From the NCBI GenBank assembly GCA_025964535.1, contig JAOPYX010000357.1:1-54878 (forward strand): a DNA stretch of 54,878 nucleotides, given 5' to 3'. The notes under the pieces were generated by a model. That model searched no databases and was not told the DNA's origin. It saw only the letters and a program-made list of their open reading frames with translations. Source of the DNA: Actinomycetes bacterium (GTDB taxonomy: Bacteria; Actinomycetota; Thermoleophilia; Gaiellales; Gaiellaceae). This document shows positions 1,774 to 26,108 of the stretch, piece after piece. The stretch's first letter is position 1. Every line of letters starts with the position of its first letter. The position numbers were made by a program, and so were the translations under genes.

Positions 1774-3960
1774 TCAGGCCGGGAGGTGGAACGGGATCGT
1801 CGTGATCACGATGTTCGGCCGGGTGCGGAGCGCCAGGCGGAGCCGTGGGGCGACCTGGCTATGGAGCAGCCGGTGCCACGGATGATGCACGACGAGCTCC
1901 GCGAGGATCACGGTCAGCGTCAGCTCCGGCCGTTGCGCCTGGAGCGCGTCGACGTAGTGCGCGAGCGGCGCCACGAGCGCGCGATACGGCGAGACGACGA
2001 TCTCGAGCCGGAGCGGTACCGCCCACGTATCCCACTCCTTGCGAAACCGCTCTGCCTCTTCGTCGCTCGGGCTGAGGTGCAACGCGAGCAATGGTTGCTC
2101 GAGCGAGGCCGCGTAGGCAAGCGCGCGCAGGTTCGCGAGGTCGAGCCGCTCGACGGCGACGAGCATGAGGTGCTGGACGTGCTCCGGGCTCTCCTGCCGC
2201 TCGCCTGTCGCGGGGGTGGGGACGTACCCGGCCTGCTTCGCCGCGGCGCCACGCGGCTGCGTGAGCGTGTCGGGCAGCGGCTGCACCGCGAGCGCCTCGT
2301 GGACGACGCGGTAGTGCGCACGCACACGCAGGCAGAGCCAGACGAGGAGAGGGATACCGAGGACGACGACCCACGCGCCGGCGGTGAACTTGGTGACAGC
2401 GGCAACCGTGACGACAATCGCCGTGAGCGTCGCTCCGAAGCCGTTGATCGCGATGGCCCGATGCCAGTGCGGCCCATGGTTGCGCCACCAGTGGACGACC
2501 ATGCCCGCCTGCGAGAGCGTGACGGCGACGAACACACCGACCGCGAAGAGCGGGATCAGCGCCTGCAGGTTCCCGTTGAAACCGGCGAAGATCGCCGCTG
2601 CGGCAATCGTCAGGACAACGATGCCGTTGCTGAACGCGAGCCGGTCGCCCATCTGCAGGAAGGGGCGCGGCGCGTGCTCGCTCCGCGCCATGAAGAAGAG
2701 GAGCCGCGGGAACCCGTTGTACGACGTGTTTGCAGCGAAGAGCAGCATTGCCGCCGTCGCCGCTTGGATGAACCCATAGGTCACGCCGTTGCCGAAGCTG
2801 CGGTGCGCGAGCTGAGAGAGCACCGTCTGATTCGGATTCCACGCGATGCCGTCGAGGTGGATGAGCAGCATGAGGCCGACGAAGATCGCGACGAGGATCC
2901 CGATCATCCACGTCATCGTCGTGCGGGCGTTCTTCCACTCCGGCGGCTTGAACGCGGGGACGGCGTTCGCGACCGCCTCGATGCCCGTCATCGACGTCGA
3001 GCCCGAGGCGAAGGCGCGGAGCACGAGCAGCACCGTCAGGCCTTCGACGGGCTTGATCGGAGGGGGCGGCGTTGCCGCGAAGCCGCGGCCTGCTTGCTGC
3101 TCGAGCCCGACGCAGATGAGGAGCCCCATCGCGAAGAGGAAGACGTACGTCGGAGCGGCGAAGAGGTGTCCCGCCTCCCGGACTCCGCGCAGGTTTCCGG
3201 CGAGCAGGAGTGCGATCATTCCGAGCCCGAGCACGACTGTGTACGGCCGAAGCGATGGAATTGCGGACGCGATCGCGGCGATTCCTGTCGCAACCGAAAC
3301 GGCGACGTTGAGGATGTAGTCCGCGAGCAGACCGACGGCAGCCGTGACACCGGCGCGCTCTCCGAGATTGTCGCCCGCGACGATGTACGAGCCGGCCCCG
3401 GACGGGTACGCCGCGATGGTCTGCCTGTACGACGCGCCGACCGCGAGCATGAGCAGGACGAGCACTCCCGCCAACGGCAACGAGACCCGGAGCCCGCTGG
3501 CTCCCGCAAGCACCAGGACGGCCAGCATCGACTCCGGGCCGTATGCCACCGACGCGAACAGATCCGAGCCGAGCACAGGCAGCGCGACCAGGTTGCGCAT
3601 GCGTTCATGCACCACCGCGCTGCTTCGCAACGGCGGCCCGATCACCACTCGCTCGACCGCCTCGACCAGACGCCCGAGCTGCGACACCGGCGTGGTGGCC
3701 GCGGCCGTCGCCTCCACCTCGTCCTTGCCCTCCGGCTCGAACGACGTCAACTCGGTGAACCTCGAGAACCGCCCGGCCCTGGGGCCGTCGGAGGCGCGCT
3801 TCAGGCTGGGATCCACCGGTAGCTCACGCAAGCGGTGCACGCGTGGCTCGACGACGGCGTTCCAGTGCCGGCCGACTTCCCGCAACGCCTCGAGCTCCTG
3901 GTCGCCGAGCGGCGGAATGATCTCTGCTGGAGTCGGAGTGTCGGGCTCGTGACCGCTCAC
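1774..3960 (-). CDS. APC-superfamily transporter, KimA/YdaO-like (probable potassium importer)
   Basis: 728 aa; SDLFASVAYGPESML, YPSGAGSYIVAGDNLG and EWKNARTTMTWMIGILVAIFVGLM segments resemble the KimA/YdaO branch; C-terminal cytosolic domain. Confidence 0.75.
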   Translation of the reverse strand: MSGHEPDTPTPAEIIPPLGDQELEALREVGRHWNAVVEPRVHRLRELPVDPSLKRASDGPRAGRFSRFTELTSFEPEGKDEVEATAAATTPVSQLGRLVEAVERVVIGPPLRSSAVVHERMRNLVALPVLGSDLFASVAYGPESMLAVLVLAGASGLRVSLPLAGVLVLLMLAVGASYRQTIAAYPSGAGSYIVAGDNLGERAGVTAAVGLLADYILNVAVSVATGIAAIASAIPSLRPYTVVLGLGMIALLLAGNLRGVREAGHLFAAPTYVFLFAMGLLICVGLEQQAGRGFAATPPPPIKPVEGLTVLLVLRAFASGSTSMTGIEAVANAVPAFKPPEWKNARTTMTWMIGILVAIFVGLMLLIHLDGIAWNPNQTVLSQLAHRSFGNGVTYGFIQAATAAMLLFAANTSYNGFPRLLFFMARSEHAPRPFLQMGDRLAFSNGIVVLTIAAAAIFAGFNGNLQALIPLFAVGVFVAVTLSQAGMVVHWWRNHGPHWHRAIAINGFGATLTAIVVTVAAVTKFTAGAWVVVLGIPLLVWLCLRVRAHYRVVHEALAVQPLPDTLTQPRGAAAKQAGYVPTPATGERQESPEHVQHLMLVAVERLDLANLRALAYAASLEQPLLALHLSPSDEEAERFRKEWDTWAVPLRLEIVVSPYRALVAPLAHYVDALQAQRPELTLTVILAELVVHHPWHRLLHSQVAPRLRLALRTRPNIVITTIPFHLPA

Positions 3961-3996: not shown

Positions 3997-4788
3997 TTAG
4001 CGGCCCTCGCGGCCGGTCGCCGCATCGAGCTCGTGGCGAACGTGTGTCGGCAACCTACGCGGGCGGCACACCCAGAGCTGGTAGCCGGGACGCTGGACGA
4101 CGTCCAGGCCGCTCGAGCGCAGCATTGCTTCGACGCATGCGTCGCTCGGCGCCCACCAGTTCGTCGGGTCGTCCGCAACGCGATGCTCGAGAAACGCCAT
4201 CTTGGGCCAGCCTGGATCGAGCAGGGCGCCGCGTGCAGCGAGCGGAAGGTTGCGCGGGGCCTGGAGCTCTTCCTCTCCGGGCATGGTCAGCGTCTGGAGG
4301 ATGAGCAGGCGCTCGGCCTTCTCGGCCAGCAGGTCGAGCGCGAGCAGCGGATGTCGCAGGTGGTAGAGGACGCCGAGAAAGAGCACGAGGTCGAATTGCT
4401 CGGCGCGACGGGCGATGTCGTAGACCTGGAGCCGCTCGATGTGCACGCGGTCCGTCAGCTCGAACAGCTTGGCCGCCCACCTCGTTTGGCGGAGGTAGTG
4501 CTCGTCCGTGTCGATGGCGAGTACGTCGGCTCCGCGCCTGGCAAGCGCGAAGCTGTAGAACCCGGCATTGCAGCCGACGTCGAGCGCGCGCCAGCCGGTG
4601 AGATCGTCGGGAAGCACCGCAGAGAGCTCTCGCCATTTCACACGAGGGAAGTCGCCGAGCGGATGGTCGGCGGCAGTCTGGTGCCCCGACGGCAGGTGGA
4701 GGTTGTGGAACCACGGCGCGAGGCGGTTGATCGTTCGTGCGATCGGATCACCTGCCGGCTGGCGCAACCCATGCGACTGGAGCGTCAC
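3997..4788 (-). CDS. SAM-dependent methyltransferase (DUF1698/CmoB-like fold)
   Basis: 263 aa; LDVGCNAGFYSFALARRGADVLAIDTDEHYLRQ motif I region; FDLVLFLGVLYHLRHPLLALD. Confidence 0.8.
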   Translation of the reverse strand: MTLQSHGLRQPAGDPIARTINRLAPWFHNLHLPSGHQTAADHPLGDFPRVKWRELSAVLPDDLTGWRALDVGCNAGFYSFALARRGADVLAIDTDEHYLRQTRWAAKLFELTDRVHIERLQVYDIARRAEQFDLVLFLGVLYHLRHPLLALDLLAEKAERLLILQTLTMPGEEELQAPRNLPLAARGALLDPGWPKMAFLEHRVADDPTNWWAPSDACVEAMLRSSGLDVVQRPGYQLWVCRPRRLPTHVRHELDAATGREGR

Positions 4789-5855
4789 GCGGCGACCTTC
4801 GCCGCCGCGCGGACGTACCCCTCGAGTAGCTCTGCGCGGCGCTCGGGCGCATGCTCAGCGAGCACTCGGCGCCGCGCGGCGGCGCCGATCCTTTGTGCTT
4901 CCGCCGGCGACAGCTCCTGCAGGATGGCGACGACGGCATCGGCAGATGTGGCAACGAGAATCTCGACGCCGGGGCGGAAGAACGAATCGAGCCCGTCCCA
5001 GTGGTCGGAGATCACGGGCACGCCGCACGCTGCGGCCTCGAACAGCCGCACGCTGGGCGACCAACCTGCGCTCACCATGTCCGCACGCGTGACGTTCAGC
5101 GTGAACCGTTGCCTTGCGTAGAACCGCGCATGCTCGTTCGGCGCGAGGTGCTCGACCCGCTCGACGTTCACGGGCCATGCGAGCTCGGGGGGATATTGAG
5201 CACCGGCGACTGCAAAATGACAACCCGGTAGCGCACGCGCAGGCGTGACGAGGAGTGCGTCGAGAGAAGCCTGCCTGTCGGCGGAGTACGTGCCGAGGTG
5301 GCCGAGCGACCATCGCTCCTCCTCGTCGAGCGGGCGATACGCGTTGCGGTCGGCCATGCAGTAGAACGGCCGCGCACATCGCGCTCCGAACTCGTGCTGG
5401 ATGCGATCGAGCAGAGGGCCGCCGGTGAACGACAGATAGAGGTCGAATCGCGGAACGAGCGCACGTGAGAGGTATTCCTCGTCGCGCCGTTCGAGCTTCT
5501 TGACGGTCACTGGTGTGTCGATGTCCCAGAAGGCGATCGCGCCTGCCGACGTCGTGAGCACCCAGTCCGCGACTGCCGTTCCTTCCGGAACGTACGAGCC
5601 GATGACGACGAGGTGCGCTTCCGCGACGTCGGTGCCGAAGCGGTCGCGCAGGTCGGCGAGCGACGTATAGAGCTCTGTGCGTCCCCACGGCGGAGACGGC
5701 AGATCGCGTCGTGTTGCGTACCACGGCATGTCACGCTCGAGGAACAGGACGTCGTGCCCGCGCGCAGCGAGGGCGCGTACCAGGGCCCGATAGTTCGTCG
5801 CGTGCCCGTTACCCCAGGAAGAGGTGATCGAGAGGCCGAGGAAGACGATCTTCAC
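4785..5855 (-). CDS. glycosyltransferase, CgeB-like / Glyco_trans_1_2 type
   Basis: GTG start inside ORF 4785..6128 (VKIVFLGLSITSSWGNGHATNYRALVRAL); C-terminal SPSVRLFEAAACGVPVISDHWDGLDSFF; 4-nt overlaps with both neighbours. Confidence 0.8.
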   Translation of the reverse strand: MKIVFLGLSITSSWGNGHATNYRALVRALAARGHDVLFLERDMPWYATRRDLPSPPWGRTELYTSLADLRDRFGTDVAEAHLVVIGSYVPEGTAVADWVLTTSAGAIAFWDIDTPVTVKKLERRDEEYLSRALVPRFDLYLSFTGGPLLDRIQHEFGARCARPFYCMADRNAYRPLDEEERWSLGHLGTYSADRQASLDALLVTPARALPGCHFAVAGAQYPPELAWPVNVERVEHLAPNEHARFYARQRFTLNVTRADMVSAGWSPSVRLFEAAACGVPVISDHWDGLDSFFRPGVEILVATSADAVVAILQELSPAEAQRIGAAARRRVLAEHAPERRAELLEGYVRAAAKVAA

Positions 5856-6922
5856 GCGCTGATCTCTCTGCCGGTGAGGACTCGTTCCACCAGCTCGGCT
5901 CGCCCCTTGTACGTGTGCTCGGCCAGTACCCGCCGGCGTGCGGCATCGCCGATCGTCGCCGCGCGTGCGGGCGTGAGCCCCTCGAGCTGCGCCACGACCG
6001 CTTCCCCGGAGTCGGCGACGAGTACCTCGCGATCCGGTTCGAGGAAGTCCTCGATTCCCTGCCACGCGTCGGTGATCAGGCAGCTGCCGGCACCCGCGGC
6101 TTCGAAGACGCGCGTCGCCGGCGACCATCCGCTCAGCGCCATCGTGTTGCGCAGCACGTTCAACACCGCAAGCGGCGTCGAGTTGAAGGCGTTGTGCGCG
6201 CTCGTCCCGACATGGCCGGCAACGCGCACGTTCGAAGGCATGGTCTTGCCGTCCCAGCCGGCGCCGCCCAGCAAGAACGTTCGCTCCGTCATCTCCTCGG
6301 CCGGACCGACGAAGAACTGCTCGACGCGCGCATCTCGATCCGGGAGTCGGTTGCCGAGAAACGCAAGATCGGCGTCGAAGCGCGAGTCCGGGCGTACCGC
6401 ATGGTGTGTCTCCGGATCGAGCGCGTTGTAGACGGGCACGCAGTCATGCGCGCGGAGTGCCCGATAACGCTCCACGACCGGCGTCCCTCCGCCGTACGTC
6501 AGGATGAGGTCGTATCGCGGCACGAGCGCACGGAGCTCGTCGTCGCGGTCGCCTTCCAGGCGCGCGAGAGTCGCGGGCGCGTCGACGTCCCAGAAGATGG
6601 TCACGCCCGCGTGCAGCTCGAGCACAGCTTCCTCCAGCAGGGAGTCGAAGACGCCGACCCCGCTTGCCTTGATCACCACTTCGCTGCCGCGCGCACGCTC
6701 GAGGGCGCCCATGGCTCCCGCTTCGGTCGCCGGGTAGACGACCACCTCGGCCCAGCTGGGATCGGGCATGTCGCGGTGGGCTTGCCGATCGAACGCGTCG
6801 GGCTCGAAGAACGTGATCCGGTGGCCCAATCTGTGCAGCTCCTTGATGAGCCCTCGGTAGTACGTCGCAGCGCCGTTCCAGTAGGCGGAGACCAGGCTCG
6901 AGCCGAAGAACGCGATCTTCAC
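5852..6922 (-). CDS. glycosyltransferase, CgeB-like / Glyco_trans_1_2 type
   Basis: GTG start inside ORF 5852..7516 (VKIAFFGSSLVSAYWNGAATYYRGLIKEL); SPATRVFEAAGAGSCLITDAWQGIEDFLEPDREVLVA. Confidence 0.8.
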   Translation of the reverse strand: MKIAFFGSSLVSAYWNGAATYYRGLIKELHRLGHRITFFEPDAFDRQAHRDMPDPSWAEVVVYPATEAGAMGALERARGSEVVIKASGVGVFDSLLEEAVLELHAGVTIFWDVDAPATLARLEGDRDDELRALVPRYDLILTYGGGTPVVERYRALRAHDCVPVYNALDPETHHAVRPDSRFDADLAFLGNRLPDRDARVEQFFVGPAEEMTERTFLLGGAGWDGKTMPSNVRVAGHVGTSAHNAFNSTPLAVLNVLRNTMALSGWSPATRVFEAAGAGSCLITDAWQGIEDFLEPDREVLVADSGEAVVAQLEGLTPARAATIGDAARRRVLAEHTYKGRAELVERVLTGREISA

Positions 6923-8067
6923 GGAACCATCCGCGCGACCGCGCGTCCGTCGGCGGCTCTGTCGAAGCCGGTCGTGTCGGAGCCGAGCTCGGCGGCGATG
7001 TGCAGCAGCTCGTCGACGCGGTGGGCGCACGTGTGCCGCTCGAGGATCGTGCGGCGGCCGTGCAGCGCGAGGTGCCGCGCCAAGTCGCGGTCGAGGAGCA
7101 CACGCTCGAGGAGCGCGCACATCTCCCGGCCGTTGCGCGCAACAAGGAAGTCGTCGCCCGGCCTGAAGAGGTTCTCCGCATCGTCCCAGCGGGAGCAGAC
7201 GAGAGGGATGCCGCACGCGAGTGCCTCGAACGGCCGAATCGTCGGAATCCCGGGCAGAGCGTCGACGTACGGGCGGCGTGGGATGTGGACGGTGACCGTG
7301 TGCCGCGCGAAGATCTCGGGCACGCGGTGGTTGGCGACCCAGCCGCGGTAGGGGAGACCCGCCTCGGCGATTGCGCGTTGCGCCGTGGTCGGGTAGCGGA
7401 CGCCGAAGAGCGAGCCGGTCAGTGGGAGCGTGCGAGCCGGCTCGAGCAGGTACTCCGATAGGTCTGCGGTCCGCTCTCCGTCGCCCCAGTTGCCGATCCA
7501 CACGACGTCGCCGCACCGCTCACGACCGATCAGGGGCCGGAAGATCCGGACGTCGGCCGCCTCGTGCCAGGTCCACGCGCGCTGCGCCCGGCCCTGCGCG
7601 AGGTAGATGTCGCGAATGACCGCGCCGTAGGCGAGCACGCCGTCGTAGTGGCGCAGGTCGTAGCGCGCCATCTGGCCCGATGCGGTGACCGAACGGTGGT
7701 GCGTGTCGTGGAAGAGGAGCCGGAAGGTGCGCGACCTGGCCCGGCAGAGGCCCACTCGGCGTACGAGCCGTGGGTCGTTCCACTCGTGGACGAGAACGAG
7801 ATCGGCACCGTCGAGAGCGGCGTCGACGTCGAGCGTCTCGAGGTCATAGAGCGTGCTCGTCAGCTCCGGGAAGACGCGTGCAAATTCTGCGAGCGGCTGC
7901 ACGCCGTGCTCGGCGATCAGGTTCGTCCGACTCCATCCGTTGCGCGGCTCGAAGATCCGGACGTCGTGGCCGCGACCGATCAACTCGCGGCTGACACCGC
8001 GCAGGAAGTGCGCGTTCCCGTGGTTCCAGTCGGAGACGATCGAGTGGCAGAAGAGCGCGATCCTCAC
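6919..8067 (-). CDS. glycosyltransferase, CgeB-like / Glyco_trans_1_2 type
   Basis: GTG start inside ORF 6919..8220 (VRIALFCHSIVSDWNHGNAHFLRG); IRPFEALACGIPLVCSRWDDAENLFRPGDDFLVA. Confidence 0.8.
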   Translation of the reverse strand: MRIALFCHSIVSDWNHGNAHFLRGVSRELIGRGHDVRIFEPRNGWSRTNLIAEHGVQPLAEFARVFPELTSTLYDLETLDVDAALDGADLVLVHEWNDPRLVRRVGLCRARSRTFRLLFHDTHHRSVTASGQMARYDLRHYDGVLAYGAVIRDIYLAQGRAQRAWTWHEAADVRIFRPLIGRERCGDVVWIGNWGDGERTADLSEYLLEPARTLPLTGSLFGVRYPTTAQRAIAEAGLPYRGWVANHRVPEIFARHTVTVHIPRRPYVDALPGIPTIRPFEALACGIPLVCSRWDDAENLFRPGDDFLVARNGREMCALLERVLLDRDLARHLALHGRRTILERHTCAHRVDELLHIAAELGSDTTGFDRAADGRAVARMVP

Positions 8068-9134
8068 GCGACCTCCACCCGGTTGCGATGTAGGACGCTT
8101 CGGTATGCGTCGACGTAGGAGCGCGCCATCCGCTGCGACGAGTAGCGCAGCGCCCGGCGATGCCCGCGCCGCGCGTACTCCGAGCGCAGCCGCGGATCCT
8201 CGATCAGCGAACGGAGACAATGCTCGAGCGCTGCGTCGTCGCGCGGGTCGGCGAAGAGCGCTGCGTCACCCCAGACCTCGTGCAGGCTCGGAATGTCGCC
8301 GAGGACGAGCGCACATCCTGAACGGCCGGCTTCGAGCGCCGCGAGGCCGAAGGGCTCATAGGTGGCTGGTGCTGCGAAGATCGCGGCCGCAGCCAGCATG
8401 TCGTCCATCTCGTTGCGCCCGAGCCGGCCGAGCATGCGCGCGTTCGGGCTTGGTTCTGTCCCGGCGGTCGGGCCGGCCACCACGAGCGGCCACGGCAGTC
8501 GCGGTGCGAGCCGGAGGAGCGCGGCCACATTCTTAGCGTCGTCCCACATGCGTCCTGCGGCAAGCACGAGCTCCTCCTTCGGACGCGTCGGGAAGGCTCT
8601 GCGCGAGGCGTTCGCGATCACGAGGCGCGGGCAAGCCGGGTCGTACAGGCGGATCAACTCGTCGAGCATCGCCTGCGTCGGCGCGACGAGCAGCGCGGCA
8701 GCCGCCAGCCCGGTCTGGACGGCCCGGCGGTAGACGCCCCACTCGGGGCCCGCCGGTGTGCCACGGACGGCTTGGTGCCACGAAAGCACGTCCGAATGAC
8801 CGACGACGACCACCGGCACCTCCCAGGGAAGAGCCGCATGGGCATAGCCGTTCAGGTGTACGACGTCCGGCTCGCTCTCGTCTGCGAGCTGCAGGAGCCA
8901 TTCCCCGGCCCGGTCGACGTCCTGCCACGGCTCGTCCATCCACTCGAGTGCACAGTCCGACGTCTCGAAGCGGGCGACGCGGCACGCGCGCAACTCGTCG
9001 CGTTGGTCGGCTGACAGAGGTGCGCCCATCGCCGCGAGCGTCACCTCGACTCCATGCTCCGCCAGCGCGTCTGCAAGCTCGAGCGCGTAGGTCCAGACGC
9101 CGCCGACGGTGTCGGCAGACATGAGCACCTTCAT
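8064..9134 (-). CDS. GT4-family glycosyltransferase
   Basis: MKVLMSADTVGGVWTYALELADAL start; YEPFGLAALEAGRSGCALVLGDIPSLHEVWGDAALF typical GT4 C-lobe. Confidence 0.85.
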   Translation of the reverse strand: MKVLMSADTVGGVWTYALELADALAEHGVEVTLAAMGAPLSADQRDELRACRVARFETSDCALEWMDEPWQDVDRAGEWLLQLADESEPDVVHLNGYAHAALPWEVPVVVVGHSDVLSWHQAVRGTPAGPEWGVYRRAVQTGLAAAALLVAPTQAMLDELIRLYDPACPRLVIANASRRAFPTRPKEELVLAAGRMWDDAKNVAALLRLAPRLPWPLVVAGPTAGTEPSPNARMLGRLGRNEMDDMLAAAAIFAAPATYEPFGLAALEAGRSGCALVLGDIPSLHEVWGDAALFADPRDDAALEHCLRSLIEDPRLRSEYARRGHRRALRYSSQRMARSYVDAYRSVLHRNRVEVA

Positions 9135-10072
9135 CGTGCGCCTCCGTAGATCAGGTCGAGCACGCGGTGCACCTCGACGTACTCCTCCGCGGCCGGATCG
9201 AAGCGGGCTCCGTCGGCGAGTCGCTGCGCCCACTCGATCACAGCTCGCCCACTCCAGTCGTCGGGTGGGCCGGCGAGCATCTCGGTGTTCGTCCCGTCCA
9301 GACGCTCGGCAACGAAGTCGACGAACGATCCGTTCACGTTCCGGATCGACGCGCCGCCGTGGGTGCCATAGAAGGTCGCTTCCAGCACGCAATCTCGGCC
9401 GGCGTGCAACCACCAAGAGCACGTGAGCCGGAGCACGGTGCCGGTCTCGAGCTCGAGCTGGACGGCGGCGTAGTCCTCGAGTGGCTCGCCGTGCAGGCGG
9501 GCGGTCACCGTGCGTACTTGGGGAAGGCCGAGCGTCCAGAGCGCGAGATCGACCAGGTGAATGCCGAGATCGGCGACGCAGCCTCCACCTGCGAGCGCCG
9601 GGTCCGAGAACCAGGGCTTGTCGGGACCGTAGGCGTTGTGGAAGACGAGGTCGGCGGCGAACACGTCGCCCAGGCTCCCGGACGCAACAGCCTCTTTCAC
9701 GCGCTGGGCGGCCTCGGTCTGGCGATAGCAGAAGTCGACTCCGACGAGCCTGTCGGCTGCGCGCGCCGCGTCGACGACGCGTCGTGCGTCAGGCGCGTTC
9801 AGGGCAAGCGGCTTCTGGCAGAAGACGGGGACGCCGTGATCGAGGGCGGCCAGCGCCTGCTCCGCGTGCAGGCCGCTTGGCGTCGCGATCACGATCCCGT
9901 CCACGTCCGCGGCGAAGAGGTCGTCGAGGGATTCGAGCGCATCGTCTACCGCCGGGTCGGCGATGGCCGCGACCTCCGCCACGCTGCTCTGCCAGATCGC
10001 GTCGAGCCGCTGCCGCCCGATCCAGCCGACGCCGAGGAATCCGAGCCGCGGCCGGGTGTGTGTTGACGTCAT
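9131..10072 (-). CDS. Gfo/Idh/MocA-family oxidoreductase
   Basis: LGFLGVGWIGRQRLDAI Rossmann motif; FCQKPLALN (variant of EKP); CVADLGIHLVDLALW. Confidence 0.85.
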   Translation of the reverse strand: MTSTHTRPRLGFLGVGWIGRQRLDAIWQSSVAEVAAIADPAVDDALESLDDLFAADVDGIVIATPSGLHAEQALAALDHGVPVFCQKPLALNAPDARRVVDAARAADRLVGVDFCYRQTEAAQRVKEAVASGSLGDVFAADLVFHNAYGPDKPWFSDPALAGGGCVADLGIHLVDLALWTLGLPQVRTVTARLHGEPLEDYAAVQLELETGTVLRLTCSWWLHAGRDCVLEATFYGTHGGASIRNVNGSFVDFVAERLDGTNTEMLAGPPDDWSGRAVIEWAQRLADGARFDPAAEEYVEVHRVLDLIYGGAR

Positions 10073-11001
10073 GCGATCGCCACGAGCGCTTTGACAAAGC
10101 CCGGTGGGCGCGATCGCAGCAGCTCGAATGCCTCGTCGATCTGCTCGATAGGGAACGTGTGCGTGTAGAGCGGCGAGGGGTCGAGCTGCCCGACGCGTAC
10201 TGCTGCGAGCGCGGCACGGATTCCCTCGACCGCAATGACTTCGTCGCGCTCGTGCGCGTTCACGACGTCGAGCCCGCGCCAGTTCCAGAGTTGCAGGTCG
10301 ACAGCCCGCAGACCGTCCTGGTGGTACCCGGCGATGACGAGGCGACCGCGGGTGCGGCAGAGCCGTGCCGCGACATCGAGTGTCTCCTGCGCACCTGCGG
10401 CCTCGATCGCGACGTCGCACGTCTGTTCAAGCGTCTGCGCCGGAGTCTCCGCACCGAATACCCGCGCGAGCTCGAGCGAGCTCTCGCGGCGTGAGAACGC
10501 AAGCGTCCTGGCGCCGGCGCCGACGCACAACTGGACGAGCAAGAGGCCGAGGAATCCGGTTCCGACCACTGCGACGGTGTCGCCGGCGCTGACGCCGCTT
10601 CGGGCGAAGACGTTGACGGCGCAGCCGAGCGCCTCACCGGGGAAGGGCCTGCCCACGAGCTCCGGCGGCAGCGCCACGAGCCGGCTCGGGCGCACGGCCA
10701 CGTACTCGGCAAACGCGTGCTGCGAGAGGATGGCGACCGGCTTCGCTGTCTCGAGCTCCACGCCCCAGGCCTCGTGCCCCGGGGCGCCGGCTGCGAGCGG
10801 GTAGTCGAACCACGGCCTGCCCTCCCAGACCGGCAAGCTCGACGCGCAGACGCCGCACCCTTCGACGCGGACGACGACCTCGTCTTCCTGAGGATCGGGA
10901 AATGCGCACGTCTCGACGCTCGTCTGTCCCGGTGCGCCGAGAACGGCCGCTTGCATCGTCCGCGCTGCGATCGTCGGTGGCTGCAGACTGCGCGCGCTCA
11001 A
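10069..11001 (-). CDS. MDR/zinc-type alcohol dehydrogenase-like oxidoreductase
   Basis: GCGVCASSLPVWEG, GAPGHEAWG, GDTVAVVGTGFLGLLLVQLCVGAGA; lacks the 4-Cys structural zinc loop. Confidence 0.8.
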   Translation of the reverse strand: MSARSLQPPTIAARTMQAAVLGAPGQTSVETCAFPDPQEDEVVVRVEGCGVCASSLPVWEGRPWFDYPLAAGAPGHEAWGVELETAKPVAILSQHAFAEYVAVRPSRLVALPPELVGRPFPGEALGCAVNVFARSGVSAGDTVAVVGTGFLGLLLVQLCVGAGARTLAFSRRESSLELARVFGAETPAQTLEQTCDVAIEAAGAQETLDVAARLCRTRGRLVIAGYHQDGLRAVDLQLWNWRGLDVVNAHERDEVIAVEGIRAALAAVRVGQLDPSPLYTHTFPIEQIDEAFELLRSRPPGFVKALVAIA

Positions 11002-12056
11002 CTGGCCTTCGCGGCGGAGAGAGCCGACGTCTCGCGTCCGGCGACCCAGCGCTCCAGCGCTTCCACACCATCCTCGGCATCGACGAGAGGTCGCCAGCCT
11101 GTCTCGGCACGCAGCTGTGACGTGTCCGCGACGTACCAGCGCTGGTCGCCTGCGCGCTCCTCGGCGAACGTCACCGCAGACGGCTCGCCGCGAATCTCCT
11201 CGATCAGCTGCAGAAGCTCCAACAGACTGAGCGTGTTGGCAGGCCCGCCGCCGAGATTGAACGCTCTGCCCGCCAACCGGTCGGCGTCGATCGAGACACG
11301 CAGCATCGCATCCACCAGATCCGTTACGAACAGCACGTCCCGCACCTGGGCGCCGTCGCCGTAGACGGTCACCGGCGCGCCGGTGCGCGTACGGATCAGG
11401 AAGTGCGCAAGCCAGCCTTGATCCTCGGTCCCGTGCTGGTGCTCACCGTAGATGCAGCTCATCCGGAAGACGACGGCCGGCAAGCCGAACGTGTTGGCGT
11501 AGTCGAGGACGTACTGGTCGGCGCCACCCTTCGAGCAGCCGTACGGCGTGCAGAAGTCGAGCCGCCGCCGTTCGCCGATTCCCCGATCGCGAAGCTCATG
11601 GTCAACCGGCTCCCAGCGGTCGGCGCAGCGGTGGAGTGGTACGTCCGGCAGCGACCCGTAGACCTTGTTCGTCGAGGTGAAGAGAAGCGGAACGGGGCGC
11701 GGCAACCGCCGTAGCTCCTCGAGCAGCATGAGGGTTGCGCGGAGGTTGACGTCGAAGTCCTCGAGCGGCAGCTCGACGCTTGTCGTCACGGCCACCTGCC
11801 CGGCAAGATGAAAGACCGCCTCGACCCCGGCGAGCGCGACGCGCAGCGCATCGGCGTCGCGGACGTCGGCGACCATCGCCATGACGCGGCCCCCGTGCCT
11901 CGCCTGCAACCAGTGGAGGTTCTCCTCGACGCCGGGACGGCTCAGGTTGTCGAAGACGACGACGCGACGTCCGTCGCCGAGCAAGCGATCTGCGAGGTTC
12001 GTGCCGACGAAGCCGGCACCACCGGTGATCAGAATGTGCCCGCTCGGCGCGCGCAT
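10998..12056 (-). CDS. NAD-dependent epimerase/dehydratase, CDP-paratose 2-epimerase-like
   Basis: ILITGGAGFVGTNLADRLL; FDNLSRPGVEENLHWL; FCTPYGCSKGGADQYVLDYA; MSCIYGEHQHGTEDQGWLAHF. Confidence 0.85.
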   Translation of the reverse strand: MRAPSGHILITGGAGFVGTNLADRLLGDGRRVVVFDNLSRPGVEENLHWLQARHGGRVMAMVADVRDADALRVALAGVEAVFHLAGQVAVTTSVELPLEDFDVNLRATLMLLEELRRLPRPVPLLFTSTNKVYGSLPDVPLHRCADRWEPVDHELRDRGIGERRRLDFCTPYGCSKGGADQYVLDYANTFGLPAVVFRMSCIYGEHQHGTEDQGWLAHFLIRTRTGAPVTVYGDGAQVRDVLFVTDLVDAMLRVSIDADRLAGRAFNLGGGPANTLSLLELLQLIEEIRGEPSAVTFAEERAGDQRWYVADTSQLRAETGWRPLVDAEDGVEALERWVAGRETSALSAAKAS

Positions 12057-12295
12057 GTGGATCAGCCCTCGTTCACTCCGCGGGATGCAATAAATCCCTT
12101 AGCGCGAGTGACGAGAGCGCACCTTCGCATTTGGCTCGCGTGTCCGCGCTCGGGTACGTAAAACATCGCGTGTTGTCGACGCTGGATCTATGTCAAGCCG
12201 CGGCGTTTGCGTTCCGCGGTGTAAGCAACAGCGTCTTTGTCGAATGTGTTCAGGACGAGGAGCACGCTGTGGCCCAGACGGTCCGCGCAGCTGAG

Positions 12296-12847
12296 ATGAC
12301 GAGTGCCACGCCCGGCGACCGCGGCTTCGAGGTCGTACGTGCGGCTGTGTCGCGCGGCGTCGTCGAGAGCGCTCTTCGCCACATCCACTTGGATCTCGTA
12401 CGCAGTGGAATACCCGTGGATACCCTCGGACGCTGGCTTTGGTCGTCGCATTGGTTCCCCCACCTCAAGTGGGATCCTGCGATCCTGGCTTTGGCCGGCG
12501 CGTTGCCCGACGCGTTGCAAGAAGGCGAGCTGTGCGACCCGCAGATCATCCTGCAGCCGCCTGACGACTGCCCCGACCAGGAGCTGGTAGCGCATGTCGA
12601 TCGAGAGCCCGAGTGGGCGGGGGAGCGGCGGTTCCTTAGGATCGTAGGCGTTGCTTTGAGCGCGGCTCATCGCGAGAACGGCGGCCTCAGGGTCTGGCCG
12701 TTCGACGGCACCGGCCCTGAGGCACTCGAGCTCGCCCCGGGTGACGCGGTCGTGATGCACCCGCGGCTGCCGCATGCGAGCGGGCTCAACCGCGAAGGCG
12801 GCATTCGCTACGCGGTCTACTTCCGCTTTCTGCGCCCGCCGGGCTGA
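12296..12847 (+). CDS. phytanoyl-CoA dioxygenase (PhyH)-like Fe(II)/2OG oxygenase
   Basis: HVDREPEW (HxD) and VVMHPRLPHASGLNREGGIRYAVYFRF distal His/Arg; ORF open from 12131, start uncertain (ATG 12296 chosen). Confidence 0.65.
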   Translation: MTSATPGDRGFEVVRAAVSRGVVESALRHIHLDLVRSGIPVDTLGRWLWSSHWFPHLKWDPAILALAGALPDALQEGELCDPQIILQPPDDCPDQELVAHVDREPEWAGERRFLRIVGVALSAAHRENGGLRVWPFDGTGPEALELAPGDAVVMHPRLPHASGLNREGGIRYAVYFRFLRPPG

Positions 12848-13413: not shown

Positions 13414-15552
13414 CTACGCGGGCTCGACACGCACACGCCCGTCCTCGAGGTTGACGTCCCATCGCCGGTCGAAGGCTCGAACTCCCGTGAGCCGAGCGTC
13501 ACCCACCCATGCCGGCAGCTCCGGCGGCGCGACGGTTCTGAGTGTCTGCCGAGTGCGATCGGGCCGGAGCCCGAGCAGCACCTGGAGCAGCAAGATCGGC
13601 GCGCCTGCCGCCCACGCCTGCGGACGCGCAGCGCTCGGGTACTGGACCGGGTACGACATCTCGAGACGTGGCAGACCCGAGAAGACCTCCGGCAGCTGCC
13701 ATGCAAAGTGCCCTGCTGCATCGAGCATTGCCTGCGCGATGCGATACGCCTCCGGCCACCGCTGGGCGCGTGCAAGCCCCGCCGCGATGAGCGAGTTGTC
13801 GTGCGGCCAGACCGTCCCGTTGTGGTAGCTGAGCGGGCTGTAGGCGCCGTCGGCGGACGACATCGTGCGGATTCCCCAGCCCGACCACAGGCCCGGCCCG
13901 ACGAGGTGATCCACGATCGCTCCGATGCGCTCCGGTGGAACGATGCCGCTCCAGAGCAGGTGACCCATGTTGGACGTCGTGCTGTCGACTCGCTGCTTGC
14001 TCCCGTCGAGCGCAAGCGCATAGGTCCCACGCTCGGGAAACCAAAACGCCTCGTTGAATCGGTGCTTGAGCTCTTCCGCCTCGCGTTCGAGCCGGTCCGC
14101 AAGCTCGGCTTCGCGCCATGCGTCGCGCGCGAGCTCCGCGATCCGCAGCTTCGCGTCATAGACGTAACCCTGGACCTCGCACGGCGCGATCGGTGGCTCG
14201 GCAAGGCGCCCGTCGCGGAAGCGCTGCGAGTCGCCCGAGTCCTTCCACGACTGGTTCTCGAGCCCGTGCGGCGTCCGGCGTTCGTACTCGACGAACCCGT
14301 CTCCATCGCGATCGCCGTATTCGTCGATCCACCGCAGCGCCGCGAGCGCCGGCTCGCGGAACCGGTCGGCGAGTGCCCAGTCGTCGGTCCAGCGCCAGAC
14401 TTCGGAGAGGAGCACGAGGAAGAGCGGCGTCGCGTCGACGGTGCCGTAGTAGCGCTCGAACCACCGGTGCGCAGCCTTGCCGTGCCTGATCTCGTGGATG
14501 ATCTTCCCCGGCTCGGCGTCGATCGAGGGATCGTCCTCGGTCGCCTGCAGCGCTGCGAGCGTATCGAGCGCAGCCCGCCCGAGATCCGGTCCCAGCACCA
14601 GTGTCTGCAGGCACGTCACGAGCGTGTCACGGCCGAAGATCGTCATGAACCACGGAGCTCCGGCCGCTGGGAGCCGACCGCCGCCTTCGCGACTGCGCAT
14701 CCGCAACGCCGCGAGGTCGGTGATCGACTGATCGAACACCGCACCGAGTGCGTGCCAGGAAGCACGGAGCTGTGGCACACGCAGGTGCCAGGCTGCGAGC
14801 GAGTCTCGGGCGCACGCGACCTCGTCGCGGAAGCGCGCATCCTGCTGCCTGGGCGCGATCTGCCCACGCTCGGTCGACGGGAACACGTCCACGAGCAGCT
14901 CCCAGCGCTCGCGGGGTGCGAGAGCGACGCGATAGGAGCTCCCGTGCGCGTCGGTGTCGCCGGGCTTGGAGAGAACGACATGGGTCGACGACGCATCGCC
15001 GTCGGTCAGCCTCGCGTCGTGGGGGCCATCCCACTGACACTCACGGAGCGGCGGCAGCGGCGGCGCGTCGACCGGGTGCCCGAGCGAGAAGTCGTGCTCC
15101 TTCACCGTGATGATGTCCGCAAAGTCGGCACCGAGGTCGACACGGAGCTGGAGCTCGATTGCTTGCTGCGACACGTTTTCGACCACGAGCTGGTCCTGGA
15201 GTGCGTCGCCGACGACGAAGCGTCGGCGTACGAGCGTGAGAGAGTCCGGCTGTAGCCCGTCCGTCACGGGGTTGCGCGCGTGGAACGCTGCCATGAAATC
15301 TTCGATGCGACCAGAGGTCAGCAACAGCGGCTGCTTGCCGTTGATCTTCACGCGTAGCAGAGAGAGGTACCGCAGATCGTCGGCGAAGAAGCCCATGGCT
15401 TCGCCGTGCACATCGCCGAGATCGTCGCAGATACAGAACGTCGAACCGTCGAGGATGGTCAGCTGCACCGGCGCGCGTCCATGTGTCTCCGGATACCGAG
15501 CGAGCGCCGGAAGGAAACCGTGCCTTGGGCTGAGCGAGACTCTCCAGGCCAC
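13414..15552 (-). CDS. glycogen-debranching-type amylo-alpha-1,6-glucosidase (GDE_N_bis plus MGH1-like GH domain)
   Basis: 712 aa; N-term LDGSTFCICDDLGDVHGEAMGFFADDLRYLS; PWFMTIFGRDTLVTCLQTL; YNGTVWPHDNSLIAAGLAR. Confidence 0.85.
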   Translation of the reverse strand: MAWRVSLSPRHGFLPALARYPETHGRAPVQLTILDGSTFCICDDLGDVHGEAMGFFADDLRYLSLLRVKINGKQPLLLTSGRIEDFMAAFHARNPVTDGLQPDSLTLVRRRFVVGDALQDQLVVENVSQQAIELQLRVDLGADFADIITVKEHDFSLGHPVDAPPLPPLRECQWDGPHDARLTDGDASSTHVVLSKPGDTDAHGSSYRVALAPRERWELLVDVFPSTERGQIAPRQQDARFRDEVACARDSLAAWHLRVPQLRASWHALGAVFDQSITDLAALRMRSREGGGRLPAAGAPWFMTIFGRDTLVTCLQTLVLGPDLGRAALDTLAALQATEDDPSIDAEPGKIIHEIRHGKAAHRWFERYYGTVDATPLFLVLLSEVWRWTDDWALADRFREPALAALRWIDEYGDRDGDGFVEYERRTPHGLENQSWKDSGDSQRFRDGRLAEPPIAPCEVQGYVYDAKLRIAELARDAWREAELADRLEREAEELKHRFNEAFWFPERGTYALALDGSKQRVDSTTSNMGHLLWSGIVPPERIGAIVDHLVGPGLWSGWGIRTMSSADGAYSPLSYHNGTVWPHDNSLIAAGLARAQRWPEAYRIAQAMLDAAGHFAWQLPEVFSGLPRLEMSYPVQYPSAARPQAWAAGAPILLLQVLLGLRPDRTRQTLRTVAPPELPAWVGDARLTGVRAFDRRWDVNLEDGRVRVEPA

Positions 15553-18787: not shown

Positions 18788-19246
18788 ATGCTGATGCGTT
18801 TCGACCCATTCCGCGGGCTGGACCGGCTTGCCGAGGAGCTGACGGGCTCGGCGGAGCGTACGCCCCGCACATTTCCGATGGACGCGTATCGCCGCGGGGA
18901 GGACGTCGTTCTGCTCTTTGACCTGCCGGGCGTCGATCCGCAATCGATCGACCTGACGGTCGACCAGCACGTGCTGACAGTGCGCGCCGAGCGGCGGTCG
19001 GAACGCGAGGATGGGGCGGAGGTGCTCGCGGCCGAGCGCCCGCAGGGCAGCTTCGTCCGGCGCGTGTTCCTCGGCGACGCACTCGACATGGACCGGATCA
19101 GCGCCGAGTACCACAACGGCGTTCTCCAATTGACGATCCCGGTGTCCGAGCGGGCGAAGCCGCGCAAGATCGAGGTCGCCGCAGACGGGCAGCAGCAGGC
19201 ACAGCCTGTCGGGCAGCAGTCGCAGCCGGTAGGCGCAGGAACGTAG
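18788..19246 (+). CDS. Hsp20/alpha-crystallin small heat-shock protein
   Basis: RFDPFRGLDRL...MDAYRRGEDVVLLFDLPGVDPQSIDLTVDQHVLTVRAERR; GVLQLTIPVSERAKPRKIEV. Confidence 0.9.
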   Translation: MLMRFDPFRGLDRLAEELTGSAERTPRTFPMDAYRRGEDVVLLFDLPGVDPQSIDLTVDQHVLTVRAERRSEREDGAEVLAAERPQGSFVRRVFLGDALDMDRISAEYHNGVLQLTIPVSERAKPRKIEVAADGQQQAQPVGQQSQPVGAGT

Positions 19247-19747
19247 ATGGCCGGCGAGCCAAGGGCCGCCGGCGAGGCAGCCCGCGGAGCTGGGGAGCCG
19301 AGCGGGATCGTCCGTTGCCCGAACTGCGGGGCGCGGAACCGTCTTCGGCCGAACGCGGAGGGCATTCCTCGCTGCGCACGGTGCCAGAGCGTCCTGCCGT
19401 GGATCACGAGCGCGACCGAGGCGTCGTTCGACGAGGAGACCCACGCTTCGGTCCCGGTGGTCGTCGACTTCTGGGCCCCGTGGTGCGCACCGTGCCGGAT
19501 GGTGCAGCCCGTTCTGGAGAGATTGGCCGGCGAGTACGCCGGCCGGCTGAAAGTGGTCGAGGTCAACGTCGACGAGCAGCCACGGCTCGCGCAGCGGTGG
19601 CAGGCGATGAGCATCCCGATGCTGGTGGTGCTGCGCGACGGCGAAGAGCTCGACCGAATCATCGGCGCACTTCCACCTGCCGAGCTCGAACGGCGCTTGC
19701 AGCCCGCCCTCGACGCGGGCGCGCAGCACGCCGGGAGTCCGACGTGA
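19247..19747 (+). CDS. thioredoxin with N-terminal zinc ribbon (Trx2/TrxC-like)
   Basis: [30 protein letters not shown] zinc ribbon, then [24 protein letters not shown]. Confidence 0.9.
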
Positions 19748-19790
19748 GCGTGCCGAACCGAAGCTCGACGCAGTAGGGAGGAAGTGCGAG

Positions 19791-21680
19791 ATGGCCAAAG
19801 CAGTTGGGATCGACCTGGGCACGACGAACTCGGTGGTCGCCGCTGTCATGGAAGGCGGCAAGGCGGAGGTGATACCCAACGCAGAGGGGGCGCGCACCAC
19901 TCCATCGGTCGTCGCGTTCACGGACGACGGCCAACGTCTTGTCGGGCAGGTTGCGAAACGGCAGGCGATCCTCAATCCCGAGGCAACGGTGTACTCGGTC
20001 AAGCGGTTCATCGGCCGCAAATGGGACGAGGTCACCGAGGAGGCGAAGGCCGTCTCGTACAAGGTCGTCAAAGGTCCCAACGACGCCGTGCGCATCGAGA
20101 TTCGCGAGAAGCAATACGCACCCGAGGAGATCTCTGCGCTCATCCTGCGCAAGCTTGCCGAGGATGCGGGCAAGTTCCTCGGCGAGCGCGTGACCGAGGC
20201 GGTGATCACCGTTCCCGCCTACTTCAACGATGCCCAGCGCCAAGCGACAAAAGACGCAGGCATGATCGCCGGGCTCGAGGTCCTGCGAATCATCAACGAG
20301 CCGACCGCCGCGGCACTCGCGTACGGACTCGACAAGCGCGGTCAGGAGACCGTGATGGTGTTCGACCTCGGCGGCGGCACCTTCGACGTGTCGCTGCTCG
20401 ACGTCGGCGATGGGCTGGTCGAGGTACGGGCCGTGAACGGCGACGGCCACCTCGGCGGCGACGACTTCGACAAGCGGATCGTCGACTGGCTTGCCGACGA
20501 GTTCAAGAACGATCAGGGAATCGACCTGCGCGCCGATCCGCAGGCGCTGCAGCGGCTGTACGAAGCTGCGGAGCGCGCGAAGGTCGAGCTGTCGAGCGCA
20601 ACGCAGACCCAGATCAACCTACCCTTCATCACGGCCGACGCCTCCGGGCCGAAGCACCTGAACACCTCGCTCACGCGCTCGAAGTTCGAGCAGCTGACGG
20701 CAGACTTGATCGAGCGCTGTCGCGGACCCGTCGAGGCTGCGCTTGCGGACGCCAAGGTGACCGCCGACGACATCGACGAAGTGATCCTGGTGGGCGGCTC
20801 CACGCGAATGCCGGCCGTGCAAGAGCTCGTCCGCCGGCTCACCGGTGGCAAGGAGCCCAATATGACGGTCAACCCCGACGAGGTCGTTGCCATCGGCGCC
20901 GCGTTGCAGGCCGGCGTGCTGAAAGGCGAGGTCGAGGACGTCGTGCTCCTAGACGTGACGCCGCTGTCGCTCGGGCTCGAGACACTCGGCGGTGTGATGA
21001 CGCCGGTGATCGAACGGAACACGACGATCCCGGCGCGGAGGGCGGAGGTGTTCTCGACGGCAGAGGACGATCAGACCGCGGTCGATGTGAGCGTGCTGCA
21101 AGGGGAACGCGAGCTTGCGGCCGACAACCGGCAGTTGGCGCGCTTTCGGCTCGAGGGCATTCGCCCGGCGCCGCGCGGAGGTCCGCACGTCGAGGTCACG
21201 TTCGACATCGACGCCAACGGGATCCTCAACGTCGCTGCGAAGGATCAGGACACGGGTGCCGAGCAGCGCGTGACCATCTCGGAGAGCACGAATCTCGATC
21301 CCGGCGAAGCCGAGCGCATGGTTCGCGACGCCGAGGAGCACGCGCAGGAGGATCGGCGGCTGCGAGAGGAGATAGACGCGCGCAACGAGCTGGATTCGCT
21401 TGCGCACCGCGCGGACCAACTCGTGCAGGAGCTGCAGGACAGGCTGCCGGTGCACGAGAAGGCGCGCGCCGAGCAGCTGGTCGCGGATGCGCGCAGCGCG
21501 ATCCAGGAGCAAGCGGGCCTCGATCGAGTGCGACCGCTCGCGGCCGACTTGCAGCAGATCATCCACGGCCTGACGGCGTCGGCCGCCGCGGGACCGACCG
21601 ACGGCGGCGGCAACGGGCGCGCGGCCGAAGAGGCGGCCGACGAGGAGGAGGTCATCGATGCGGAGTTCACCCGGGACTGA
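19791..21680 (+). CDS. dnaK: molecular chaperone DnaK (Hsp70)
   Basis: [73 protein letters not shown]. Confidence 0.97.
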
Positions 21681-22185
21681 GCGGGACGCGCCACGTAATC
21701 CGGCTGAGCTCTCCGAGGAAGAGCTCCGCACCGAGCTCGAGCAAACGCGCGCGTGGCTCGACGAGACCGAGGATCACTATTTGCGCGCACGAGCGGATCT
21801 CGACAACTACCGCAAGCGTGCCGAGCGGGACGTCGAGCGGCGGGTGCGCGAGCAGGGCGATGCGCTGCTTCGCGGCTGGTTGGAGGTTGTCGACACCGTC
21901 GAGCGTGCGCTCGCGCTCGGGCCGGACGACCCGGGACTTCGCGCGGTCCTCGAGCAGATGGAGTCGCTTCTCACCCGCCACGGCGTCAGACGCTTCGGCG
22001 AGGCCGGAGACATGTTCGATCCCGAACGGCACGAGGCGATCGCCGTCGTCGCGGATCCCGATCGCCCCGCCGGCACGATCGCCGAGGTCGCGCGGTCCGG
22101 GTATTCCGCCGGTGACCGTGTTCTCCGCCCGGCGCAAGTCGCCGTTGCTCGCCCATCTGCTGACGGTCCCGCTGACGGCGACTGA
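21658..22185 (+). CDS. grpE: nucleotide exchange factor GrpE
   Basis: [45 protein letters not shown]; located between dnaK and dnaJ. Confidence 0.9.
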
Positions 22186-23123
22186 TGCCGGTCGCGTATC
22201 GCGATTACTACGAAGCACTCGGCGTGCCGCGCGGCGCGAGCAGTGAGGAGATTCGTGCCGCCTACCGGAAGCTTGCGCGGGAGTACCACCCGGACGTGAA
22301 CAAGGACCCGGGTGCAGAGGAGCGGTTCAAGGAGGTCTCCGAGGCATACGAGGTGCTGCGCGACCCCGAGAAGCGGGAGCGCTACGACCGGCTCGGCTCG
22401 AACTGGCGTGCCGGCGACGACGTCTCCGGAGCGGCATCGGGATTCGGGGGCTTCCAGCCCGGCGAAGGCTACGAGGACGTCCGAGTCTCGTTCGGCGACG
22501 GCGCCGGGTTCGGCGATTTCTCGGATCTCTTCGAAGGGCTCTTCGGCGCGCGGGCGGGGCGTGGCTTTGCGGGAGGAGGCTTCGCGCGAGCGCGGCGAGG
22601 CGCCGACGTCGAGGCCGAGCTCGAGCTGTCGCTCGAAGAGGCCGCGGCGGGAGGACATCGCTGGGTCGCGCTGCCCGGCGGCCGCTCATACGAGGTGACG
22701 GTTCCGCCCGGTGTTCGCGACGGACAACGCATTCGCCTGGCGGGGGAGGGGCGCGAGGGAAGTGGCGGCGGCCCCGTCGGCGATCTGTTGCTGCGCGTGC
22801 GGATTCGCCCGCATCCGCGCTTCCGCCTCGAGGGCGACGACCTGTACACCGACCTGCCGGTCAGCCCCTGGGAGGCGGCGCTCGGAGCGACGGTCGACCT
22901 GGAGACGCTCGAGGGCCGCGCTCAGGTGAAAGTGCCCGGCGGCTCGTCGTGCGGTCGGCGGCTGCGTTTGCGCGGGGAGGGGATGCCGCGCACCGACGGT
23001 GGTCATGGCGACCTCTACGCGGAAGTGCGCATCCTCGTGCCGAAGAAGCTCAGCCGTGCCGAGCGCAAGGCATTCGAGCAGCTCGCCGAGACGTCGAAGT
23101 TCGATCCGCGGTCGGGCAGATGA
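22185..23123 (+). CDS. DnaJ/CbpA-type J-domain protein (no CXXCXGXG zinc repeats)
   Basis: [67 protein letters not shown]; DnaJ C-terminal domain; zinc-finger repeats absent. Confidence 0.93.
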
Positions 23124-23449
23124 GCACGGTCGTTCGACCGGTCGAGACCCATCTCGTCGTGCGTGACGGGCGATCCGGCGGCCGGCCCGACCTCGATGCG
23201 CTCGCACAGGAGGCCGGCGTTCACCCTCAGCTCGTGCGGCGGCTGATCGCGCTCGGGCTCCTCGACGTTGTCCCCGGCAGGCCGTTTCCGCGCGATGCAG
23301 CTCCTCGCATCGCGCGCGCAGTGCGCCTACGGCGCGATCTCGGACTCAACTATGCGGGCGCGCTGCTTGCGTGCGAGCTGCTCGACAGGATCGAGCAGTT
23401 GGAGCAGCGTCTCCGCCGCTACGAACCTGCCGATCGGCAGCGGAGGTGA
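23120..23449 (+). CDS. CbpM/MerR-like chaperone modulator
   Basis: [59 protein letters not shown] CbpM-like C-terminus; 4-nt overlap with dnaJ-like gene. Confidence 0.75.
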
Positions 23450-23453
23450 CGTG

Positions 23454-26108
<2,655 letters not shown>

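Follow-up and report, generated by a model that had tools for sequence, protein, structure and literature searches.

CgeB is a glycosyltransferase of the Bacillus spore-crust cluster, and methylmannose polysaccharide (MMP) and methylglucose lipopolysaccharide are cytosolic O-methylated glycans that are made by soluble GT-B enzymes together with methyltransferases. CgeB-type glycosyltransferases and a methyltransferase also stand side by side in an eight-gene cluster on a 54,878-nt contig from an Actinomycetes bacterium of the Gaiellaceae (GenBank assembly GCA_025964535.1, contig JAOPYX010000357.1; the whole stretch is referred to below as the window). A preliminary description, made from the sequence of the window, read the eight genes as one operon for a modified, possibly methylated, oligosaccharide. 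The comparisons reported here support the methylated oligosaccharide and show that the cluster is not confined to this genome: by sequence comparison, the eight genes are a genuine copy, minus one gene, of a conserved and uncharacterized oligosaccharide system that spans phyla and has nine genes in its canonical form.

The closest described systems each share part of this gene set. The likeness to the Bacillus cge cluster holds at the level of family PF13524: the CgeB-type glycosyltransferases are common to both, but the window has no sporulation genes, other partners, and three separate orthologue lineages. The mycobacterial MMP mannosyltransferase 7qsg is the top fold match of one of the CgeB-type enzymes, at just 12% identity and with no gene-for-gene correspondence between the systems, and MMP contains one repeating sugar, whereas the present cluster encodes four different glycosyltransferases, a nucleoside diphosphate (NDP)-sugar 2-epimerase and two oxidoreductases. 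CDP-tyvelose systems share the epimerase type, but no CDP-glucose dideoxysugar genes occur in the cluster. The apiose operon of Xanthomonas pisi (XpUAS, XpApiT, XpXylT), which employs GT90 and GT2 transferases and is described as unique to that species (PMC6193724), resembles it in having a UDP-glucuronate decarboxylase-type enzyme beside glycosyltransferases, and another Xanthomonas carries the present cluster. An apiose pathway, raised by PMC5607165, was rejected: its transferases are GT90/GT2 enzymes, the decarboxylase found with the cluster is closest to UDP-xylose synthase, and the window unit contains neither a GT90 apiosyltransferase nor a UDP-apiose synthase.

Two NCBI hypothetical-equivalog families, TIGR04290 (meth_Rta_06860) and TIGR04295 (B12_rSAM_oligo), give names without function. 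The first contains the methyltransferase of the cluster; TIGR04295 radical-SAM proteins lie inside some copies of the cluster, and none is in the window. In the open-access literature we found no paper that mentions TIGR04290 and nothing on point for the cluster. A gene-for-gene match to a known named pathway would have overturned the preliminary description. A one-to-one match does exist, but it is to an unnamed set known only through the TIGR04290 model, and no named pathway was found for the nine genes.

Results

Gene content of the cluster

The eight genes lie on the minus strand and are listed in operon order, followed by the region upstream of the first gene.

10998..12056, minus strand: EP, NDP-sugar epimerase of the short-chain dehydrogenase/reductase (SDR) family, CDP-tyvelose 2-epimerase (TyvE) type, operon gene 1 (solved relatives, motifs)
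10069..11001, minus strand: MDR, zinc-type medium-chain dehydrogenase (Pfam ADH_zinc_N; start possible at TTG 11001, likelier at ATG 10956)
9131..10072, minus strand: Gfo/Idh/MocA oxidoreductase (Pfam GFO_IDH_MocA; invariant QKP and His)
8064..9134, minus strand: GT4 glycosyltransferase, retaining, with EX7E motif (Pfam Glyco_transf_4 / Glycos_transf_1)
6919..8067, minus strand: CgeB1, CgeB-like GT-B glycosyltransferase of orthologue lineage 1 (PF13524)
5852..6922, minus strand: CgeB2, CgeB-like GT-B glycosyltransferase of orthologue lineage 2 (PF13524; AlphaFold model)
4785..5855, minus strand: CgeB3, CgeB-like GT-B glycosyltransferase of orthologue lineage 3 (PF13524)
3997..4788, minus strand: S-adenosylmethionine (SAM)-dependent methyltransferase of the TIGR04290 (Rta_06860) family, CmoB-like fold, last gene (TIGR04290 score)
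12057..12139, no strand: intergenic region before EP, 83 nt from the EP start to the called start at 12140, common to the divergent PhyH gene; the operon promoter is expected here

All eight open reading frames were confirmed at their earlier coordinates with no internal stops, and Pfam agrees with the families first proposed. The genome to which the window belongs comprises 3.19 Mb in 360 contigs and is 76.6% complete.

The same genes in the same order across phyla

The methyltransferase of the window scores 317.8 bits against TIGR04290 (cut-off 300). At least 558 relatives of it were found among the 84,980 species genomes scanned, and 143 plasmid records carry one by tblastn. Eighty of the 558 loci were fetched. 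One hidden Markov model (HMM) per gene was used to assess the 66 loci in which 9 kb or more precede the methyltransferase. The ordered set EP2-EP-MDR-Gfo/Idh-GT4-CgeB1-CgeB2-CgeB3-TIGR04290 methyltransferase, in which EP2 is a second epimerase, is complete in 46 of these 66 loci, and its order is changed in one. Complete sets occur in Actinomycetota, Bacteroidota, Pseudomonadota, Geobacteraceae, Gemmatimonadota and Planctomycetota, and large parts of the unit in Acidobacteriota, Verrucomicrobiota, Chloroflexota, Cyanobacteria and Fibrobacterota. The loci of Xanthomonas sacchari, Rhizobium leguminosarum, Bradyrhizobium, Paracoccus, Roseomonas and Sinorhizobium medicae have in common the two epimerases, GT4 and the three CgeB-type glycosyltransferases; MDR and Gfo/Idh are present in four of the six (the X. 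sacchari dehydrogenase, missing from its annotation, was detected by HMM), and a UDP-glucuronate decarboxylase lies near the unit in all six.

Within the window, GT4, CgeB1, CgeB2 and CgeB3 score 541, 646, 634 and 630 bits against their HMMs, one gene per lineage and in canonical order; EP, MDR and Gfo/Idh (622, 500 and 535 bits) lie upstream, again in canonical order. Window sequences were among the HMM seeds, and the following cross-phylum identities do not depend on those models. EP, MDR and Gfo/Idh are 47–59% identical to most of their proteobacterial counterparts. CgeB1 shares 49–58% identity with proteobacterial lineage-1 orthologues as opposed to 30–32% with its paralogues, and CgeB2 and CgeB3 share 56–62% and 53–58% with their respective orthologues, so that every CgeB of the window is 49–62% identical to its own proteobacterial orthologues and 30–40% identical to its paralogues in the window. 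By these comparisons the three genes belong to separate orthologue lineages and are predicted to perform distinct steps, not to be redundant copies, because each of the three lineages is conserved. A quick concatenated tree (GT4, CgeB1-3 and methyltransferase) places the window within Actinomycetota with support of 100 and recovers most phyla as groups; the copies thus group largely by phylum, which argues that the unit has been inherited together.

Three further observations concern individual copies. The Ramlibacter terrae locus has EP2, MDR, Gfo/Idh, GT4, CgeB1 and CgeB2 each in two open reading frames, a pattern resembling sequencing frameshifts and not decay. Several proteobacterial copies encode, between CgeB3 and the methyltransferase, a conserved protein of ∼93 aa that matches nothing in Pfam (locus L079, 9644-9925; locus L025, 13682-13954) and whose family is present in 15 loci overall. 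A candidate second copy in the window's own genome, on contig C32, was rejected, as it is a different locus with an unrelated CgeB-type protein; that protein is accompanied by a GT2 enzyme, a GDP-fucose-synthase-like SDR and a flippase-like membrane protein.

Packing of the operon

The preliminary description gave ATGA/GTGA overlaps at all seven junctions. Exact 4-nt overlaps of this kind are present at six: on the minus strand the junction reads GTGA at 4785, 5852, 6919 and 8064 and ATGA at 9131 and 10069. The seventh, 10998/11001, reads TTGA. Homologous MDR proteins begin at MQAAV or MRAAV, corresponding to ATG 10956 in the window, and a codon-usage gene caller also places the start there, leaving a 41-nt gap after the EP stop. 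The start at this junction is doubtful, because an AAGG stretch precedes TTG 11001 while homology and codon usage favor ATG 10956.

Exact 4-nt overlaps at six of seven junctions exceed the frequency elsewhere in the window, where 5 of 23 co-directional neighbors have them. Among relatives the same geometry is found at 237 of 428 adjacent core junctions, and the junctions concerned differ between copies. The packing is above the local background and typical of this operon, not special to the window; because relatives share it but at shifting junctions, it is a sign of an operon rather than of a special mechanism. Tight packing shared with relatives supports the proposal that the eight genes form a single operon.

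A TyvE-like epimerase and its missing partner

The first gene, originally called simply an epimerase, can be narrowed to a TyvE-type NDP-sugar 2-epimerase from its solved relatives and motif alignment. Its best solved relatives are 1orr (E 5e-78, 265 bits) and 9rl0, far ahead of GalE and dehydratases; the next family scores 126 bits. The motifs STNKVYG and YxxxK (YGCSK) are present in 57 of 57 relatives and DQGW in 56 of 57, and alignment to 1orr and 9rl0 shows that EP keeps the SDR catalytic Thr-Tyr-Lys and the DQGW nucleotide/sugar loop. In CDP-tyvelose 2-epimerase, cytidine is bound by Trp207, Trp210 and Phe211 (PMC7851689). The window EP keeps Trp207 and Phe211 and has His in place of Trp210; we therefore describe it as a TyvE-like NDP-hexose 2-epimerase and do not claim CDP specificity. 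StTyvE and TaTyvE are thus like EP in sequence and in all three motifs but differ at Trp210, and the nucleotide or the sugar may differ as well.

EP2 in other copies is closest to UDP-sugar 4-epimerase-like (sugar-nucleotide 4-epimerase) enzymes. Another Gaiellaceae copy has EP2 and is missing EP. In several Rhizobium copies (L026, 6416-8458; L140, 6437-8479; L143, 6440-8482) the EP gene is ∼2.0 kb long and encodes 680 aa, which seems to be a fusion with an extra, unidentified domain.

Oxidoreductases and glycosyltransferases

The nearest solved relatives of MDR are ketose/sorbitol-type dehydrogenases, and the GHE zinc-site motif is kept. In Gfo/Idh, Q86-K87-P88 and H172 are invariant in 60 relatives. 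The GT4 sequence YEPFGLAALE carries the EX7E motif, and this enzyme probably makes the first transfer. The AlphaFold model of CgeB2 (pLDDT 89.4) has a GT-B fold like that of GT4 enzymes; besides 7qsg, its best fold matches are PglA, PimB', MshA and BshA, at 11–15% identity.

Genes accompanying the unit

If the product were a cell-surface glycan, the unit would build a short glycan on a lipid carrier, a lipid or a lipo-oligosaccharide that is exported by distant genes and decorates a coat or capsule. The role of CgeB in the Bacillus spore crust favors such a route, as do the pyruvyl transferase and F420-dehydrogenase-like genes that lie near a few copies, as in surface glycan loci. The Rta_06860 tag of TIGR04290 presumably refers to Ramlibacter tataouinensis, although this origin of the name is our own reading of the tag. 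Cysts of that organism have an exopolysaccharide coat (PMC3164672), which would fit a surface product. The neighborhoods speak against it. The unit in the window includes no Wzx/Wzy, flippase, polymerase or ABC polysaccharide exporter, and among 116 genes neighboring other copies none of these recurs, which extends the earlier observation that no polymerase or flippase is visible; nor does an initiating phosphoglycosyltransferase recur beside the unit in any phylum. What recurs among the 116 are generic ABC ATPases, CBS-domain proteins (5), DUF1003 (4), SDRs and NUDIX proteins. The nine-gene set is also found in lineages with very different envelopes, and we regard a surface glycan as unlikely.

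The partners in alphaproteobacteria bear on another alternative, in which the enzymes attach sugar and methyl groups to a specific small molecule (e.g., a natural product or a derivative of inositol) or to a protein. There the unit is accompanied by inositol-3-phosphate synthase (INO1), a histidine phosphatase, a clan GH-A-like glycosidase and a UDP-xylose synthase (UXS)-like enzyme (the UXS-type partner of proteobacterial copies scores 337 bits to UXS1), making inositol and xylose candidate building blocks in that class. The synthase and the phosphatase are frequent partners; GT4 is weakly similar to MshA-type enzymes, which glycosylate inositol phosphate, the CgeB2 model resembles MshA and BshA, and MDR and Gfo/Idh weakly resemble inosose and inositol dehydrogenases (IolM, IolG). 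However, the MshA, IolM and IolG scores are far below the curated cut-offs, and no aglycone-making genes (polyketide, peptide or terpene) recur. Tailoring of such a molecule is, in our judgment, improbable, and it overlaps with the oligosaccharide proposed below if the acceptor is inositol.

Inositol- and xylose-type partners do not stand beside the window copy; an INO1-type gene is located elsewhere in its genome, split over contigs. No recurrent partner beyond the core genes lies beside the Actinomycetota copies, and these neighbors gave no lead to the sugar. The partner glycosidase of other copies (L027, 14741-15691, and relatives), absent from the window, has no Pfam match and carries the clan GH-A-type motifs WNEPNN and WVTEVG. 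Its predicted structure matched solved glycosidases weakly, and it is possibly an unclassified glycoside hydrolase family.

Several genes flank the cluster in the window. A 728-aa amino-acid-permease-like protein (1774-3960, minus strand) starts 36 nt past the methyltransferase stop, and its co-transcription is possible; such a permease is not recurrent downstream of other copies. The next gene upstream is the divergent PhyH-type (phytanoyl-CoA dioxygenase-like) gene (12140-12847, plus strand), which shares the 83-nt promoter region. A GDE_N_bis glycogen-debranching-like protein (13414-15552, minus strand) has two paralogues elsewhere in the genome and a patchy occurrence in the genus. Two large LuxR-type regulators (27516-30296 and 32385-34940, plus strand) lie further away; the first type of domain seen in them, in one protein, is AAA, and the other protein has a MalT-like TPR region.

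The methyl donor of the last enzyme

The closest solved relatives of the TIGR04290 methyltransferase are CmoB enzymes. In CmoB, Lys91, Tyr200 and Arg315 hold the carboxymethyl group, and Lys91 is needed for carboxy-SAM (PMC10491745). In a full alignment of 87 sequences with E. coli CmoB, Tyr200 is kept in all 87; Lys91 is replaced throughout, by His in 85 sequences and by either His or Gln in the set as a whole, and no residue corresponds to Arg315. One of 25 host genomes has an above-cut-off match to CmoA, the enzyme that produces carboxy-SAM. Because the carboxy-SAM residues are lost and the other 24 hosts lack CmoA, ordinary SAM is the most likely methyl donor, which would give a methyl ether or ester as product; the enzyme probably adds a cap. 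Use of carboxy-SAM to add a carboxymethyl group, giving an acidic oligosaccharide, was first suggested by the CmoB match and finds a residual argument in Tyr200, but it is largely refuted by the His or Gln at Lys91, the absence of Arg315 and the missing CmoA, and we consider it exceedingly improbable.

Stress-type promoters in rhizobial copies

The EcfG motif is described as GGAAC-N17-20-GTT (PMC6599016), and the R. etli EcfG1 form as GGAAC-N16-CGTT (PMC3892343). In the R. leguminosarum, Bradyrhizobium and S. medicae loci the motif occurs 62–165 nt upstream of six of seven lead genes; in Markov-shuffled regions the count averaged 0.1 of 7 and never exceeded 2. The out-of-sample set consisted of seven further loci, six from Rhizobium and one from Azospirillum, with four further EP "leaders" left out where the annotated EP overlaps EP2 by 4 nt. 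An EcfG site lies 51–148 nt before 13 of 13 lead genes (MDR, EP2, INO1) in the six Rhizobium loci, bringing the rhizobial total to 19 of 20. Most of these sites end in GGTT, AGTT or TGTT, unlike the CGTT of the strict EcfG1 consensus. Judged from these motifs, the general stress response appears to activate the rhizobial copies. In the first three Rhizobiales loci the motif is likewise frequent at neighboring genes outside the cluster (13/39), and the unit therefore lies in general-stress islands.

The window contains a chaperone run at 18788-26108 (plus strand) encoding Hsp20, thioredoxin, DnaK (Hsp70), DnaJ, a MerR-type regulator and a ClpB-like AAA protein. The cluster is ∼7 kb from it and adjoins CBS and glycogen-debranching-like genes, a neighborhood that is only suggestive of a link to stress in the window.

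Discussion

We propose that the cluster makes a short, soluble, O-methyl-capped hetero-oligosaccharide or oligosaccharyl cyclitol that serves as a general-stress protectant, and we give this explanation a probability of roughly one half. EP would invert C2 of an NDP-hexose, and EP2, which may be encoded elsewhere or lost in the window's organism, would supply a second NDP-sugar, probably C4-epimerized. MDR and Gfo/Idh, working as a pair, would oxidize and reduce a single hydroxyl of a building block that is either a sugar or a cyclitol. GT4 would then form the first glycosidic bond, CgeB1, CgeB2 and CgeB3 would each add one specific sugar, and the TIGR04290 enzyme would methylate the product with ordinary SAM. 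We infer this order of steps, along with the kinds of sugar and acceptor and the solubility of the product, and in the window's organism the role in stress would follow that suggested for rhizobia. Judging from the genera that have the unit (Ramlibacter, Rufibacter, Pontibacter, Salinimicrobium, Rhizobium) and from the promoters in rhizobia, the stress concerned would be drying, salt or oxidative.

Several results weigh against this proposal. No copy has a known product. EP2 is not in the window, and the best other match in this 76.6%-complete genome reaches 58 bits. The methyltransferase is found in just 4 of 397 sampled Actinomycetota, the window genome included, and above the cut-off in none of 15 other sampled genomes of the window's genus; given its rarity, the function would be accessory in that phylum. 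The Paracoccus, Roseomonas and Azospirillum copies have no EcfG sites, the Rhizobium loci are related to each other so that the 13 of 13 are not 13 independent events, and no stress-type promoter was found before EP in the window, where 12057..12139 has no SigB/SigF- or sigma70-like match. The lack of nearby flippase genes, finally, is compatible with export by genes located elsewhere and does not exclude it.

Very different phyla thus encode these nine enzymes in one conserved order, and at least 558 loci carry a relative of the last gene. As a tentative extension, the unit may define an undescribed, phylum-spanning class of stress-protective O-methylated oligosaccharides or oligosaccharyl-inositols, resembling compatible solutes alongside trehalose and glucosylglycerate and governed by the general stress response in rhizobia and probably in other groups. 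If a defined metabolite does lie behind the unit, bacteria would have in it a protectant that is common but has been overlooked.

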